NCBI GenBank assembly: GCA_013285945.1
Contig: JABDGP010000003.1
Location: 17,817-81,816 of the forward strand
DNA from: Bacteroidota bacterium
GTDB taxonomy: Bacteria; Bacteroidota; Bacteroidia; Cytophagales; Cyclobacteriaceae
Direction of reading: 5' to 3'
DNA: 64,000 nt
The notes below the pieces were generated by a model, which ran no database searches, had not been told where the DNA came from, and saw only the letters and a list, made by a program, of their open reading frames with translations. A program made the translations under genes and the position numbers. Of the stretch, positions 3,792-43,849 are shown in pieces. The stretch's first letter is position 1. Every line of letters begins with the position of its first letter.

Positions 3792-5033
3792 TCATATTAT
3801 AAACATCTTATTTTGAGCGAGGCATCCGCTCAGCTTGCGATAAACGCTTTTGATATTTTCGACAGAGTGATCTTTGCCAAGTGCATTGGTGATTCTGTTC
3901 GCAAGTGTTCCTTCAGTTAGTATGATATCAAGTTCAGGCTTCTCCCATTTTTCCAGCGAGGGAGTTAGTGTAATAAGTCTTTGCAAAATACTTTTCCAAA
4001 GCTCGGCAGCGCTTAGCGGAGTTCGAATTCCAAAGATCTTCAAAAACTCATCATTTGTTATTACAGCTTGCGGTCCACTTACAATGCAATCATCAAAAAT
4101 GGATACAAGCACATCGGTTTTTATTTTTACTTGTTCTTCAATCGGAATAAATTTTTCGTTGACCAACGCCTTAAGCAATTCTATCACAAGCGTTATTATG
4201 GCCATGTCAGCTGCCGGGCATTCTTGTATATCCATCACACGGATTTCAATTGAGCCGCGATCAAAACGAGGTATGGCACCGCGAGAGTTTACCCAAATAG
4301 GATTCAAAATATTGTTAGGATCAAATGGTTTGATGTCTGCCTGAATCTTGTCATACACTGTATTGATATAATTCCGTTTTGAAAAAACAGCTTCGGGTAT
4401 AACTCTGCCAGTAATCGATGGGATTTTAGCTTGGTTCGTTTTATAGAACTCCAGGCGTGTATCTAGTTTTCCTGTTAACCGGCCATCGAGGATTGGAGAA
4501 CTCGCGCACAAAGCAGGAAGTACTGGCAACAAGATTCTAACTGCCGCATGAAGTTTGGCAAACTCTTCATCATCATAAAACGGCAGATTTAAATGTGTGC
4601 TTTGCAAATTGCTCCAACCGTGACCCTTGCTATTAAAAATCCGATCGTATATTTCATACACTTCATTGCTTTCATGCGGCCACAATTTTGTTTCAATAAT
4701 CGGATCCATTAGCGGATGAGCTGCAGAAGGCATAAGCATTGCATTCCACTTGCTTAGTATTGCATTTATCTTTTTTATGTTGTCTGCAAATGCGTGCTCT
4801 AGTGCATTAAAATTTAACTCTGGTTTTGTCGATTTTAATTCAATCACATGCAATACCAATTCGTTACTCCACGTAACAATTCCGTTTTCAAAATCGCTCG
4901 CATACTCTCCCAGTTCATGCTTGAGCAATTCGTCAGTTATCGGCTTCACAGCCAATGTATCTTTGTCCACCAACATGTATTCCAGTTCGATGCCGAAAGC
5001 CTGAAATAAGTGCAGGCGCGATGGTTGATTCAT
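3792..5033 (-). CDS. Glutamate-cysteine ligase family 2 (GCS2-like) carboxylate-amine ligase
   Basis: FGIELEYMLVD N-terminus, WSNLQSTHLNLPF, RGSIEIRVMDIQECPAAD; overlaps the RimK-like gene by 4 bp. Confidence 0.8.
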   Translation of the reverse strand: MNQPSRLHLFQAFGIELEYMLVDKDTLAVKPITDELLKHELGEYASDFENGIVTWSNELVLHVIELKSTKPELNFNALEHAFADNIKKINAILSKWNAMLMPSAAHPLMDPIIETKLWPHESNEVYEIYDRIFNSKGHGWSNLQSTHLNLPFYDDEEFAKLHAAVRILLPVLPALCASSPILDGRLTGKLDTRLEFYKTNQAKIPSITGRVIPEAVFSKRNYINTVYDKIQADIKPFDPNNILNPIWVNSRGAIPRFDRGSIEIRVMDIQECPAADMAIITLVIELLKALVNEKFIPIEEQVKIKTDVLVSIFDDCIVSGPQAVITNDEFLKIFGIRTPLSAAELWKSILQRLITLTPSLEKWEKPELDIILTEGTLANRITNALGKDHSVENIKSVYRKLSGCLAQNKMFII

Positions 5034-6478
5034 TTCTCTGCTTTGATTTTATCCAAAAAAACTTCCATGATTATTGAATACAACTTGTCCTTTAAAATCT
5101 TGTCTTCGATGCCCGCATCAATATTGGGGTTATCATTGATTTCTATCACATAAAATTTTCCGTCAACTTCTTTCATATCAACACCGTACAAACTCTTGCC
5201 GATAAGTGCTGTTGCTTTGAGTGCCGTCTTCAATAAACCTGATGGCGCCTGATCTACCGGAATGCTCTCCACCTCTCCTTCGCGTGACTTTTCTTTATTC
5301 GCACTCCAGTTTACAATCTGCCAGTGCTTGGTAGCCATAAAATATTTGCAAACATAAATCACCTGACTGTCGATTACACCCACACGCCAATCAAATGGCG
5401 TTGGTAAAAATTCCTGCGCGATAAGCAAATCCGATTTTTCAAACATGGTAGCTCTCACCTTTTTAAATTCTTCTTTTGAGTTTATTTTAAAGACGCCTTT
5501 CGAAAACGCTCCATCCGGTTGCTTAAGTATAAAAGGAAAAGCCATCTTGGTCGAGATCGAGTCGCAGTTTTCTTCAGAGATCACGACCGACTTGGGTGTG
5601 AGAACTTTGTGAGAGTTGAGCAGTTCATGTAAATAAACTTTGTTCGTGCATTTTAAAATGGAGTCGGGATCGTCAATCACTGCAAGCCCGAGCGATTGTG
5701 CTTTTTTTGCAAAACGAAAAGTATGGTGATTTACATTGGTTGTTTCACGGATAAACAGTGCATCGTACTGAATCAGTTTATCAATGTCATTTTTTGTAAT
5801 GAACTCGGTATTAAATCCCGTTTCTATCGCTGCCTTATAAAAACGCTTCAATGCACGCTCATCCGAAGGCGGATTGGTATCATCCGGATCGGTGAGTATG
5901 GCGAGGTCATATTTCTTTTTATCAGGCCGGTAGTCTCGCTTCCGCAACAAATATTTTTCCAACGAGGAAACGAGAAGCGGCTTATCAACCTCTGGTACTT
6001 CATTTAAGTTAATAGGTCGGATGCTTTGCAAGACCCATTTATTTTTCTTGGAGAAAGCAGCACGGAGCGACGGAGCCTGTACCATCTGGAAAAGTTGCTG
6101 TGCAAGGCGATTGAGATTTTCTGATTGTGTAATACCAAAATAAATATTGAACTCAACGCGATCGTAAGGCTCGGTTTTAAAAGTATTTTGGATGAGCATG
6201 TCAAAATCCAAGGAGTCATCGCGCAAAATAGAAGGGAAGCGCAAATCCTGAATGGTGGAAACTTCCGGCAGTGCTTTGTGACCGCGCGCTTCCGCAAGCA
6301 ACGAAACATAGTACCCTTCACTTTGGTATTGATATGACTTACAAAGATTCAGCACTTTCAGGTTTTTCATCACCTGATATTCCTCCCCTGAAATGTATTC
6401 ATCTGCCGAAATGACTTCTACATCTTCGATTTGAAAGTTCCACGTCTCCGGTTTTTCGACGATTATTAATTTAGGCAT
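5030..6478 (-). CDS. RimK-family ATP-grasp protein with an N-terminal RimK-associated extension
   Basis: ATP-grasp motifs FPFILKQPDGAFSKGVFKI, LLIAQEFLPTPFDWRVGVID, GVDMKEVDGKFYVIEINDNPNIDAGIED. Confidence 0.88.
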   Translation of the reverse strand: MPKLIIVEKPETWNFQIEDVEVISADEYISGEEYQVMKNLKVLNLCKSYQYQSEGYYVSLLAEARGHKALPEVSTIQDLRFPSILRDDSLDFDMLIQNTFKTEPYDRVEFNIYFGITQSENLNRLAQQLFQMVQAPSLRAAFSKKNKWVLQSIRPINLNEVPEVDKPLLVSSLEKYLLRKRDYRPDKKKYDLAILTDPDDTNPPSDERALKRFYKAAIETGFNTEFITKNDIDKLIQYDALFIRETTNVNHHTFRFAKKAQSLGLAVIDDPDSILKCTNKVYLHELLNSHKVLTPKSVVISEENCDSISTKMAFPFILKQPDGAFSKGVFKINSKEEFKKVRATMFEKSDLLIAQEFLPTPFDWRVGVIDSQVIYVCKYFMATKHWQIVNWSANKEKSREGEVESIPVDQAPSGLLKTALKATALIGKSLYGVDMKEVDGKFYVIEINDNPNIDAGIEDKILKDKLYSIIMEVFLDKIKAEK

Positions 6479-6560
6479 GTCAATTAATTGATCAATTTAG
6501 CCAAGATAACAAGTTCGGTGAAATTGGATTTGACTAATTGAGGCATTAACAGGTGGCTGA

Positions 6561-7277
6561 TTATTTTTTTGGTTCAATGATCAAAAGGTTAGCATCATAA
6601 GTAACAATACCGAGCATGATGCTGTTGATGAGCCTGTCAAACGCAACACTATAGTATTGGCTTTTCAACGGATTAGGATTCATCGGGTCTGCAAGATAGA
6701 CCGTATTGGTCGTGTCATCAAATCCGTTGACTATAACAAAGTGACCCACAGGTTCCCCACGAATGCTATCAAACTTGTTGCTCGCCGGAATCTCGCGTTG
6801 AGTTCCATAAAGATAAGTTGCGCTGAGCCCGGTAAGAACTGGTACCGACTGCTTCAGGTATCTTTTAATCAGTGCTTCGTCCAATTCAGTCTGCAGAATT
6901 TTTCCGCCGGCTTCCAAAAATTTGATGTAGGCCTTCGATGCTACCTGCAGTCGTTTGCTTCTGAATTTGTAACGCATCTGCTTCTTCAAGTTGTGCACCA
7001 TCATTTTCGACGAAAGTGTAAACCACGAAGGATCAAAAATAGTGAGATTGTATGTATAGATGTGAGCGTGATAACCGCGCTGCAACGCATGGTTGCCGAG
7101 CATCACTGCGAGTGTGCCGCCCGACTTCAAGCTTTTAACTTCGTTGATTACTTCTTTTAGCGCAATAGGGTCATTGTAGTATTGATAAAGCGCGTGCAGA
7201 CACGTGGGGCCGCATGTAATATCATCAGGCTGGGCCTTGATGTCGAAATTGAGAAATAAGGCGTGGCGATTGGTCAT
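6561..7277 (-). CDS. C39-like (papain-fold) peptidase family protein
   Basis: QPDDITCGPTCLHALYQYY (catalytic Cys context), GHFVIVNGFDD (His), VYLADPMNP (Asp). Confidence 0.85.
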   Translation of the reverse strand: MTNRHALFLNFDIKAQPDDITCGPTCLHALYQYYNDPIALKEVINEVKSLKSGGTLAVMLGNHALQRGYHAHIYTYNLTIFDPSWFTLSSKMMVHNLKKQMRYKFRSKRLQVASKAYIKFLEAGGKILQTELDEALIKRYLKQSVPVLTGLSATYLYGTQREIPASNKFDSIRGEPVGHFVIVNGFDDTTNTVYLADPMNPNPLKSQYYSVAFDRLINSIMLGIVTYDANLLIIEPKK

Positions 7278-7388: not shown

Positions 7389-8153
7389 ATGAAACACTTT
7401 CTGATTTTTTGCCTCTCAATCCTCATTACCACGTTCTCATTTGCATGGGGCCCCACCGGTCATCGGGCGGTAGGGCTAATAGCTCAAAAGCACCTTTCGG
7501 CGAAAGCCAAAAAAAACCTGGCAAAAGTTCTGGGCCAGGAATCTCTGGCCGAAGTAGCTAACTGGATGGATGAAATCCGATCGGACTCTACTTATAAAGA
7601 CATGGCCGATTGGCATTGGGTTACTGTCGAAACCGGAAAGACGTATGATCAGTCGACCAAAAATCCCAAAGGAGATGTGATTGCAACGCTGGAAAGGATT
7701 ATTTCGGAATTGAAAAAACATACGCTCGACAAAAAAACAGAAATGGAATATGTGAAAATGCTGGTTCATCTGGTAGGAGACATTCATCAGCCGTTGCATG
7801 TAGGCTGCTGTGATGACCAAGGCGGCAACAAAGTGAAAGTAAAATGGTTTCGCAATGAATCTAACCTCCACCGAGTGTGGGATAGCGACATGATTGACGA
7901 CACCAAGCTAAGTTACAGTGAACTGGTGGAATTTCTCGACAAATCAGATGCTACTACCATGATGGCTTGGCAAAAGAATTCTGTGCGCGATTGGGCTGAC
8001 GAATCGATGGGCCTTCGCAAAACTGTCTATGAAATCGGTGATGGAAATCTGGGCTACAAATATTCATTTAAAAACCTTCCGATAGCCAAGAAAAGAGTGC
8101 TGCAGGCAGGTGTGAGATTGGCTGGTATACTCAATGAGATTTACGGTAAGTAA
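7389..8153 (+). CDS. S1/P1 nuclease family protein, secreted
   Basis: Signal peptide followed by WGPTGHRAVGLIAQKHL; LVHLVGDIHQPLHVGCCDDQGGNKVKVKWF; NLHRVWDSDMID. Confidence 0.95.
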   Translation: MKHFLIFCLSILITTFSFAWGPTGHRAVGLIAQKHLSAKAKKNLAKVLGQESLAEVANWMDEIRSDSTYKDMADWHWVTVETGKTYDQSTKNPKGDVIATLERIISELKKHTLDKKTEMEYVKMLVHLVGDIHQPLHVGCCDDQGGNKVKVKWFRNESNLHRVWDSDMIDDTKLSYSELVEFLDKSDATTMMAWQKNSVRDWADESMGLRKTVYEIGDGNLGYKYSFKNLPIAKKRVLQAGVRLAGILNEIYGK

Positions 8154-41724: not shown

Positions 41725-42290
41725 AAAGTATAAATTCTTGCAGGTGTAATCGCATGAGTCAGCCTTTCATCATGAGGTTGAATATCCTTAATATTTTCAA
41801 TCGCTTCAAAAAAAGACAGCCCGATTTTTTTACAGTCACTTCTGCACTCTTTCAAGAACGCATCATAAAATCCTTTGCCGTAGCCTACCCTGTTGCCGGC
41901 CTGATCGAAGGCAAGCATAGGAACCATTACCAGATCAATCTCTTTCGTTGGTGTAGGTTCTCCATATTGAGGTTCTGGAATTCCCCATTTGTTTACCGCA
42001 ATTTGCTGTTTGTCTTTAAAGAAGAGATTTTCTAGTCTATTTGCATCATCAATTTTTGGAATCGAAACACGAATATGTGCATGTTCCTTTTTCAATCGAT
42101 CAATAATTAACCATGTGTCTGGTTCTTTTTTTGAATCGATGGGAAGAAAAATGTGGATCGTTCTAATCTTCGTGAGGTCAATTAAAGAGAAAAACGAGTC
42201 GCAAATAATTTGACTTTGTCTAGCCAGCTCTTCTGGGGAAAGTGCGAGCCGAAGTTTTAAATACTTATCTCGAAGTTCTTTTTTGTTCAA
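41721..42290 (-). CDS. 5-formyltetrahydrofolate cyclo-ligase
   Basis: KKELRDKYLKLRLALSPEE; VPMLAFDQAGNRVGYGKGFYDAFL. Confidence 0.93.
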   Translation of the reverse strand: MNKKELRDKYLKLRLALSPEELARQSQIICDSFFSLIDLTKIRTIHIFLPIDSKKEPDTWLIIDRLKKEHAHIRVSIPKIDDANRLENLFFKDKQQIAVNKWGIPEPQYGEPTPTKEIDLVMVPMLAFDQAGNRVGYGKGFYDAFLKECRSDCKKIGLSFFEAIENIKDIQPHDERLTHAITPARIYTF

Positions 42291-43849
42291 AGCTCGATAA
42301 CATTAAACCGGAAATCAAAAGGATCAAAACATTCAATAAGCTTTTTTATCAATTGAGGATCCTGCTGGTAAAAATTCAGGAAGTTATCGGTTCGTTCCTG
42401 CGGACTGCCATTGGGAAACAGGAAATCCTTTACTTTTTCGATTTGCCCAAGTTTGTCTGCATGCTTGCGCTTTTCGGCACGCATCATTTTATGTTCTATA
42501 CCCTCCAATGCATGTGCCATCCGTGATTTTTGCGCGTCAATGTGTTTCAATAATGTAATATCAATCTGAGAAGCGCGGGACTTTATTTGACCGAAGAACT
42601 CAGATACCTCGTTAATTTCTTTGCCCAGCGACAAATCGGTTTGAGAATTTTCTGCGATCCAATGATTGAAAAGGTAATTCTTCTCTTCAAAAAAATCCTT
42701 TAGCTTCAGGCCTGTCTTCAAAAACTTATTTTTTGTGGGCTCATCCAATACAGAGGCAAAGTTGCGTGGCATCAAAATGGGAAATGGTGTTTTAAAAAAT
42801 TCGAACACACCTTTCAATTGAAGCCAGTACACTACTTCGGCCGGCCCTCCGGCGTAGCCAAGGTTAGGAAGGATCGTCTCCTGGTAAAGCGGGCGAAGGA
42901 TCACATTTGGACTGAACTTCTCAGGCTCCGCATCGATCAATTTCTTAATTTCTTCGGCAGAAAAATTTAACGAAGTATCAACAACATGATAATGGTCATC
43001 CTTCTTTTCAATGCGTCCACGAATATTTTTATCGAGATAAAAAAAGTTAATGTCGCGTGCGAAAACCTGTGGATGATAGCCAAGCTCTTCCAGCTGTTTG
43101 TTCTTTTCTTCCACCAACTCCTTGCCAGAATGAGTAAACAGGTCATTGCTAATCACATCTTTAAACTGTGCTTTAAGAGCACGGTCATCTGCATCCAATA
43201 CGATTAACCCTTCACTTCCAAAAAGCTCGTTAACATAATACCGGGTTGAATCAGCAAGCGTCTTATTTTTACTGTAAGCATTTCTAAAAAGAGAAACATC
43301 TCCGGGTAATTCATCACTAAGTTTCACTAAGCTTTTCGGATCGAATCTCCCGACGGCTCCGGTTTGGTCTGTTTCCCAGGCGTATTTTTTTCCATACAAC
43401 CGAAACGATTTGATTTCATCATAGTCATGGTCTTCACTTGCCATCCAATAGACAGGCACAAAATTGTGTTCAGGGTATTTCTTTTTAAGAACTGCACATA
43501 TGTTTATGACAGTGACAATTTTGTAAATGAAATAAAGAGGGCCGGTAAAAATATTCAGCTGATGTCCCGTGGTGATGGTAAACGTTTTGGAGTCCTTGAG
43601 TGATCGTAGATTGGACGTTACTGATTCGCTTGCCTCAAGCCCCTCGTATTGGCGTTTTAACGTGTCTGATAAAATAGTACGGCTGAGTTGAGGGAACGAT
43701 TCGGCTTTTTCTGTTATCTGCAGTTTGAAATTTTCAACTGAAGGAAACCGGCGATAGAATTTTTTAAGGGATTCTTTTTTGGAGATGTAGTCAAGAAAAA
43801 ATGAAGTGAAAGAGCGTGTATCCGCCAGAGCAATTTTGTGGAGCTGCAT
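42287..43849 (-). CDS. bshC: Bacillithiol biosynthesis cysteine-adding enzyme BshC
   Basis: TITTGHQLNIFTGPLYFIYKIVTVINICAVLKKKYPEHNFVPVYWMASEDHDYDEIKSF; NVILRPLYQETILPNLGYAGGPAEVVYWLQLKGVFE. Confidence 0.96.
   Translation of the reverse strand: MQLHKIALADTRSFTSFFLDYISKKESLKKFYRRFPSVENFKLQITEKAESFPQLSRTILSDTLKRQYEGLEASESVTSNLRSLKDSKTFTITTGHQLNIFTGPLYFIYKIVTVINICAVLKKKYPEHNFVPVYWMASEDHDYDEIKSFRLYGKKYAWETDQTGAVGRFDPKSLVKLSDELPGDVSLFRNAYSKNKTLADSTRYYVNELFGSEGLIVLDADDRALKAQFKDVISNDLFTHSGKELVEEKNKQLEELGYHPQVFARDINFFYLDKNIRGRIEKKDDHYHVVDTSLNFSAEEIKKLIDAEPEKFSPNVILRPLYQETILPNLGYAGGPAEVVYWLQLKGVFEFFKTPFPILMPRNFASVLDEPTKNKFLKTGLKLKDFFEEKNYLFNHWIAENSQTDLSLGKEINEVSEFFGQIKSRASQIDITLLKHIDAQKSRMAHALEGIEHKMMRAEKRKHADKLGQIEKVKDFLFPNGSPQERTDNFLNFYQQDPQLIKKLIECFDPFDFRFNVIEL

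Follow-up and report, generated by a model that had tools for sequence, protein, structure and literature searches.

An operon of a C39-like peptidase and two unlike carboxylate-amine ligases in Cyclobacteriaceae: a candidate pathway for a small capped peptide

The C39-like, RLAN-ATP-grasp and GCS2 genes

The window, a 64,000-nucleotide stretch of a Cyclobacteriaceae genome, contains three consecutive minus-strand genes encoding a C39-like peptidase and two ligases, with the following features.

6561–7277, minus strand: C39-like (papain-fold) cysteine peptidase or transferase, 238 aa (PF13529/PF03412, alignment, AlphaFold model)
7212–7214, minus strand: codon of the predicted catalytic Cys22 (invariant in the C39 family alignment; sequence)
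5030–6478, minus strand: RLAN plus RimK-type ATP-grasp carboxylate-amine ligase, 482 aa (PF14401, PF08443; Foldseek with a low-confidence model)
5975–6403, minus strand: RLAN domain, aa 26–168 (PF14401)
5117–5647, minus strand: RimK-like ATP-grasp domain, aa 278–454 (PF08443, conservation)
5030–5033, minus strand: 4-bp ATGA overlap of the RLAN-ATP-grasp stop and the GCS2 start, kept in most relatives
3792–5033, minus strand: GCS2-type carboxylate-amine ligase, 413 aa, divergent from known GshA/YbdK types (PF04107)
4980–4994, minus strand: G14-x-E16-x-E18 motif of the GS/GCS2 fold, predicted Mg-ATP site (conservation; PMC2588565)

As the initial annotation had described, the open reading frames run from 7277 to 6561, from 6478 to 5030 and from 5033 to 3792 on the minus strand, the RLAN-RimK gene ending at 5030 and the GCS2 gene starting at 5033, and Pfam matches confirm two different ATP-dependent ligases together with a papain-fold peptidase. 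That three-gene reading was right in its genes and coordinates; it missed the RLAN domain, an N-formylglutamate-amidohydrolase-like (FGase) gene that does not lie at the window locus, and the replacement of GCS2 by a GNAT domain.

The C39-like protein matches PF13529 (1e-11) and PF03412 (6e-7), and its PF13529 score of 45.7 bits (cut-off 24), together with a Gln/Cys/His/Asp set, places it among the C39-like cysteine peptidases. The predicted catalytic residues Gln16, Cys22, His179 and Asp197 are invariant in 14 phylum-wide homologues and 30 close ones. No signal peptide is evident at its start, which suggests a cytosolic enzyme. In its AlphaFold model, rated good (pLDDT 80.7), the nearest PDB folds are C39 peptidase domains, xylellain, the phytochelatin synthase Alr0975 with glutathione and the pseudomurein endoisopeptidase PeiR, all of them remote matches (TM about 0.45). 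By sequence, the closest PDB relatives are the C39 domains of peptide exporters; PF05023 (phytochelatin synthase) is not among the Pfam matches of the protein, and its resemblance to phytochelatin synthase is one of fold only.

The second protein matches RLAN (PF14401, 7e-43) and RimK (PF08443, 1e-10), and with 146.3 bits for PF14401 (cut-off 25), joined to a RimK-like ATP-grasp domain bearing a conserved E446-x-N448-D-N450-P-N motif, it belongs to the RLAN proteins. Against NCBIfam, the ATP-grasp falls far under the RimK, LysX and MptN cut-offs; its highest-scoring model there is that of RimK alpha-L-glutamate ligases, and the TIGR00768 (RimK) score is 84.4 bits where 143.4 are needed. PF02955 (GshB, GSH-S_ATP) has no match in the protein, Pfam places no GNAT domain in it, and TIGR03103 (N-acetylglutaminylglutamine amide, NAGGN, synthetase) is absent among the 25 families listed for it and the 21 listed for the GNAT fusion at locus L109. 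Foldseek matches of its model comprise Ddl, LysX/ArgX and RimK, including RimK with RpsF, ArgX with LysW and the graspetide ligase PsnB; the model is poor (pLDDT 59) and uninformative for the RLAN domain.

The GCS2 protein matches PF04107 (6e-23) and, by sequence, has no convincing relative in the PDB. Its best NCBIfam GCS2 match reaches 51 bits of the 176.4 needed, all glutamate-cysteine ligase models score still lower, and it stays under the cut-off for every NCBIfam GCS2 model listed, including the YbdK types. With scores this far below the NCBIfam cut-offs, neither ligase is a plain member of those curated families. The substrate specificity of the GCS2 protein is beyond what sequence can tell. 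However divergent, its GhExE motif and other GCS2 active-site residues are invariant in 14 homologues, and the catalytic motifs of all three proteins are intact and conserved.

Around these genes, no precursor peptide is found: every short open reading frame conserved across relatives overlaps the long operon genes or a divergent nuclease gene, which bears out the earlier observation that no precursor lies nearby. The HHH/ComEA-like gene (3654–2755) and the divergent S1/P1 nuclease gene (7389–8153) accompany the operon within Cyclobacteriaceae only, and both are rejected as members on that account. A DUF155 (RMND1/Sif2) gene lies just upstream of C39 at L020:6492-7283, with the same synteny at L002, L105, L108 and L110; this adjacency in several Cyclobacteriaceae is probably lineage synteny. 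A phage or defence system is rejected: PADLOC returned no match, and the one PHROG match is weak and RimK-like.

Conservation, a fourth gene and the apparent exchange of GCS2 for GNAT

We compared 42 loci from Cyclobacteriaceae and neighbours. C39 is present wherever the sequence reaches upstream (39 of 39 Cyclobacteriaceae loci with an upstream flank) and GCS2 wherever it reaches downstream, the gene order is constant, and the 4-bp overlap is mostly kept. Across the wider phylum, RLAN occurs in 45 of 396 genomes, and the 40 loci retrieved from these fall into 26 with C39, RLAN and GCS2, four with RLAN, GCS2 and FGase but without C39, and ten with a GNAT-RLAN-ATP-grasp protein and none of the other genes. 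The C39-RLAN-GCS2 order, with overlaps or short gaps between the genes, is common to Cyclobacteriaceae and the phylum. The C39 subfamily is found in 27 of the 396 genomes, and RLAN adjoins it in all 27 (hypergeometric P about 3e-30, a value that ignores shared ancestry, the 27 genomes representing eight family-level groups). In G076, G111, G194 and G274, which are other genera of the window's family, C39 and RLAN are both missing and have therefore been gained or lost together. C39, RLAN-ATP-grasp and GCS2 are a real functional unit; their near-invariant co-occurrence across Cyclobacteriaceae and phylum loci rules out a chance neighbourhood. The initial annotation had held that its proposal would fail if the three genes were rarely found together, and they are found together almost without exception. 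The Pseudomonadota comparison was drawn from plasmid records. In Pseudomonas, an RLAN-RimK gene (L115:5902-7491) has no C39, GCS2 or GNAT neighbours and lies close to genes for a glutamate/aspartate ABC transporter and a gamma-glutamyltransferase on the opposite strand.

A fourth gene, the FGase-like gene (PF05013), directly follows GCS2 in 21 of 30 GCS2-type phylum loci (17 of the 26 with C39 and all four without it). Among Cyclobacteriaceae it follows GCS2 in 19 loci, a few of which place it one to two genes farther away, and its CEH, SH..D.G, HSFTP and GIE.E motifs are conserved. The RLAN-GCS2 locus of Legionella adelaidensis contains an FGase as well, the three genes being annotated there as RimK family, glutamate-cysteine ligase family and N-formylglutamate amidohydrolase. 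A search of the window's genome, which is 77.7% complete, found no RLAN-type FGase; G146, a complete genome of the same genus, has a single, high-scoring FGase located elsewhere. The window therefore presents a four-gene system in a form with three genes. Neither C39 nor FGase is strictly needed, since each of them is absent from some lineages. The same FGase-like subfamily also occurs apart from RLAN, in the g88 genus (L120, L121, L122), with no obvious adjoining ligase. A Pfam scan of L125:9504-13171 reveals a parallel operon of an FGase-like gene (PF05013), MATCAP (PF08014) and a glutathione-synthetase-type ATP-grasp (PF02955), again one ligase with two hydrolases, which L123, L126 and L127 resemble in position, size and sequence start.

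In ten of the 40 phylum loci, from a large clade and from a distant one, an N-terminal GNAT domain is fused to the RLAN-ATP-grasp protein (for L109 and L114 a Pfam scan confirms the domain; at the other loci it was assigned from length or similarity). Genome-wide, the GNAT-fusion genomes contain no match to the C39 subfamily and no RLAN-type FGase, and their GCS2 matches are weak or of another subfamily; the strong GCS2 match of G223 scores poorly against the RLAN-type GCS2 profile. GNAT thus turns up repeatedly in the absence of GCS2 and FGase and looks like an alternative to GCS2. On the RLAN tree, which was built quickly and contains some long rows, at least two changes are needed to account for the fusion, both forced by well-supported branches, and a single genus, g132, has both arrangements (GNAT fusion in G223, C39 and GCS2 in G385). 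Azospirillum and G155 have yet another layout, in which GNAT is fused to a C39-like DUF3335 domain beside RLAN; the window's C39 profile matches the G155 GNAT-DUF3335 protein at 8e-9, and in the Azospirillum fusion the GNAT domain scores above the cut-off for RimI, a ribosomal-protein acetyltransferase. At L130:7568-10189, a GNAT-DUF3335 fusion is followed by RLAN-ATP-grasp as two open reading frames, either a split gene or a sequencing frameshift.

Resemblance to known systems

Amidoligase neighbourhoods that bring together ATP-grasp, GS-fold and GNAT ligases were reportedly described by Iyer et al. in 2009 (cited through PMC4431377 and PMC10318531). They share with our loci the linkage of unrelated ligases, GNAT partners and GNAT-fused C39-like DUF3335 peptidases. 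The operon is of the generic amidoligase type, being a conserved unit in which at least two ATP-dependent carboxylate-amine ligases or GNATs are linked to a peptidase or hydrolase. Ligase-ligase-peptidase neighbourhoods are an established, largely uncharacterised kind, of which the operon is a well-supported member; we claim no novelty for the exact four-gene order.

Three characterised systems resemble the operon in part. Glutathione synthesis (GshA-type ligase and ATP-grasp GshB) with phytochelatin synthase likewise combines a GCS-type ligase, an ATP-grasp and a papain-fold enzyme acting on gamma-Glu peptides; however, GCS2 and ATP-grasp of the operon fail the GshA and GshB models, its C39 protein is not PF05023, and the gene organisation is different. 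NAGGN synthesis uses the GNAT-ATP-grasp protein Ngg (TIGR03103), an amidotransferase and a peptidase. The likeness consists of a GNAT fused to an ATP-grasp, an N-acetylated dipeptide product and a peptidase in the operon. In contrast to Ngg, the fusions at L109 and L114 have the RLAN domain between GNAT and ATP-grasp, the TIGR03103 match in the Azospirillum GNAT-C39 protein is confined to a GNAT segment and stays well under the cut-off, and the window ATP-grasp, with no GNAT fusion and no TIGR03103 match among the families listed, does not qualify as a NAGGN synthetase. The RimK/RimB ribosome modification switch also pairs a RimK-type ligase with a protease, but the operon differs in its C39-like cysteine peptidase instead of a retropepsin, its extra GCS2, its RLAN domain and its sub-RimK score.

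A proposed pathway and its rivals

We propose, at about even odds (roughly 0.5), that the operon encodes a cytosolic pathway making, and able to dismantle, a small non-ribosomal N-capped peptide, probably a gamma-glutamyl one, along a glutathione-like or NAGGN-like route. The logic is that of glutathione/phytochelatin and NAGGN synthesis. GCS2 would activate glutamate, or a similar acid, at its gamma-carboxyl and couple it to an amino acid X or a pre-made dipeptide, and the RLAN-ATP-grasp would activate a free carboxyl and add an amino acid, giving a product of the gamma-Glu-X-Y type as in glutathione synthesis; the relative order of the two ligations is left free. The C39-like enzyme would then cleave or transfer the product through a Cys acyl-enzyme, comparable to phytochelatin synthase acting on glutathione, and the FGase-like enzyme, where present, may strip the N-acyl cap and so free the amino acids for reuse. 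Where GCS2 is missing, GNAT would supply an acetyl cap, as in NAGGN synthesis. Linked peptide ligases are expected to work in succession, and acyl capping by GNAT is possible (PMC4431377).

The conserved unit, the FGase association, the GNAT swap, the missing precursor and the likeness of the C39 model to phytochelatin synthase favour a small capped peptide. Against this reading stand the RimI-like score of the Azospirillum GNAT, the dispensability of C39 and FGase in some lineages and the remoteness of the C39 fold matches, as does the fact that proteins (RpsF, LysW) are also among the targets of RimK-type ATP-grasps. The earlier proposal, amide- or peptide-conjugate synthesis without a ribosomal precursor, is consistent with all findings.

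The main rival, which we regard as unlikely, is a reversible tag on a protein terminus, with the RLAN-ATP-grasp and GCS2 attaching amino acids, as RimK does on RpsF, and the C39-like and FGase-like hydrolases taking them off. The best ATP-grasp model, that of RimK alpha-L-glutamate ligases, agrees with it, as do the structural matches to RimK with RpsF and ArgX with LysW, the precedent of RimK/RimB as a ligase-plus-protease switch (PMC12239564) and the resemblance of the Azospirillum GNAT domain to RimI. However, no gene for a target protein recurs beside the operon, where the recurring neighbours are the core genes only and others look like lineage synteny, and a simple tail needs no two chemically different ligases. 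Rather less probable is a strict thiol or metal-binding peptide, with gamma-Glu-Cys made by GCS2, a glutathione-like thiol by the ATP-grasp and polymers by C39 in the manner of phytochelatin synthase: the three activity classes are those of glutathione plus phytochelatin synthesis, and the C39 model matches Alr0975 with bound glutathione. Yet GCS2 lies far under every glutamate-cysteine ligase cut-off, a GNAT replacement offers no reason for cysteine, and the window contains bshC (42287–43849, TIGR03998 1e-125), so that bacillithiol is probably the thiol; its separateness from the operon, presumed earlier from this gene, is consistent with all findings.

Lower still we place the decoration of a cell-wall, O-antigen or exopolysaccharide precursor by the ligases, with the C39-like enzyme cutting the resulting isopeptide. 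Ddl-like relatives of the ATP-grasp and PeiR among the C39 structural matches would fit, but comparison across lineages shows no recurring neighbour from any one family of wall, sugar or transport genes, and C39 has no visible secretion signal. A graspetide-like or leader-peptide RiPP, in which the ATP-grasp would crosslink a ribosomally made precursor and C39 would cut off the leader, draws on PsnB among the ATP-grasp structural matches and on the exporter C39 domains as closest PDB sequence relatives; it is close to refuted, as there is no conserved intergenic short open reading frame and no transporter fusion, GCS2 stays unexplained, and a distant, unlinked precursor would be required.

For the capped-peptide pathway, a broader version can be put forward tentatively: an uncharacterised, widespread pathway to a new class of small capped peptide, whose N-cap may have alternated repeatedly between gamma-glutamyl (GCS2, with de-capping by a dedicated FGase-like enzyme) and acetyl (GNAT). 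The papain-fold enzyme would act on this product in the way that phytochelatin synthase acts on glutathione. Many family-level groups of a single phylum have the operon or a variant of it, and the Legionella record has RLAN, GCS2 and FGase. Together, the four-gene set and the GNAT/GCS2 swap lead to a concrete prediction: a small peptide with an N-cap, probably a gamma-glutamyl one, and two candidate enzymes for its breakdown.
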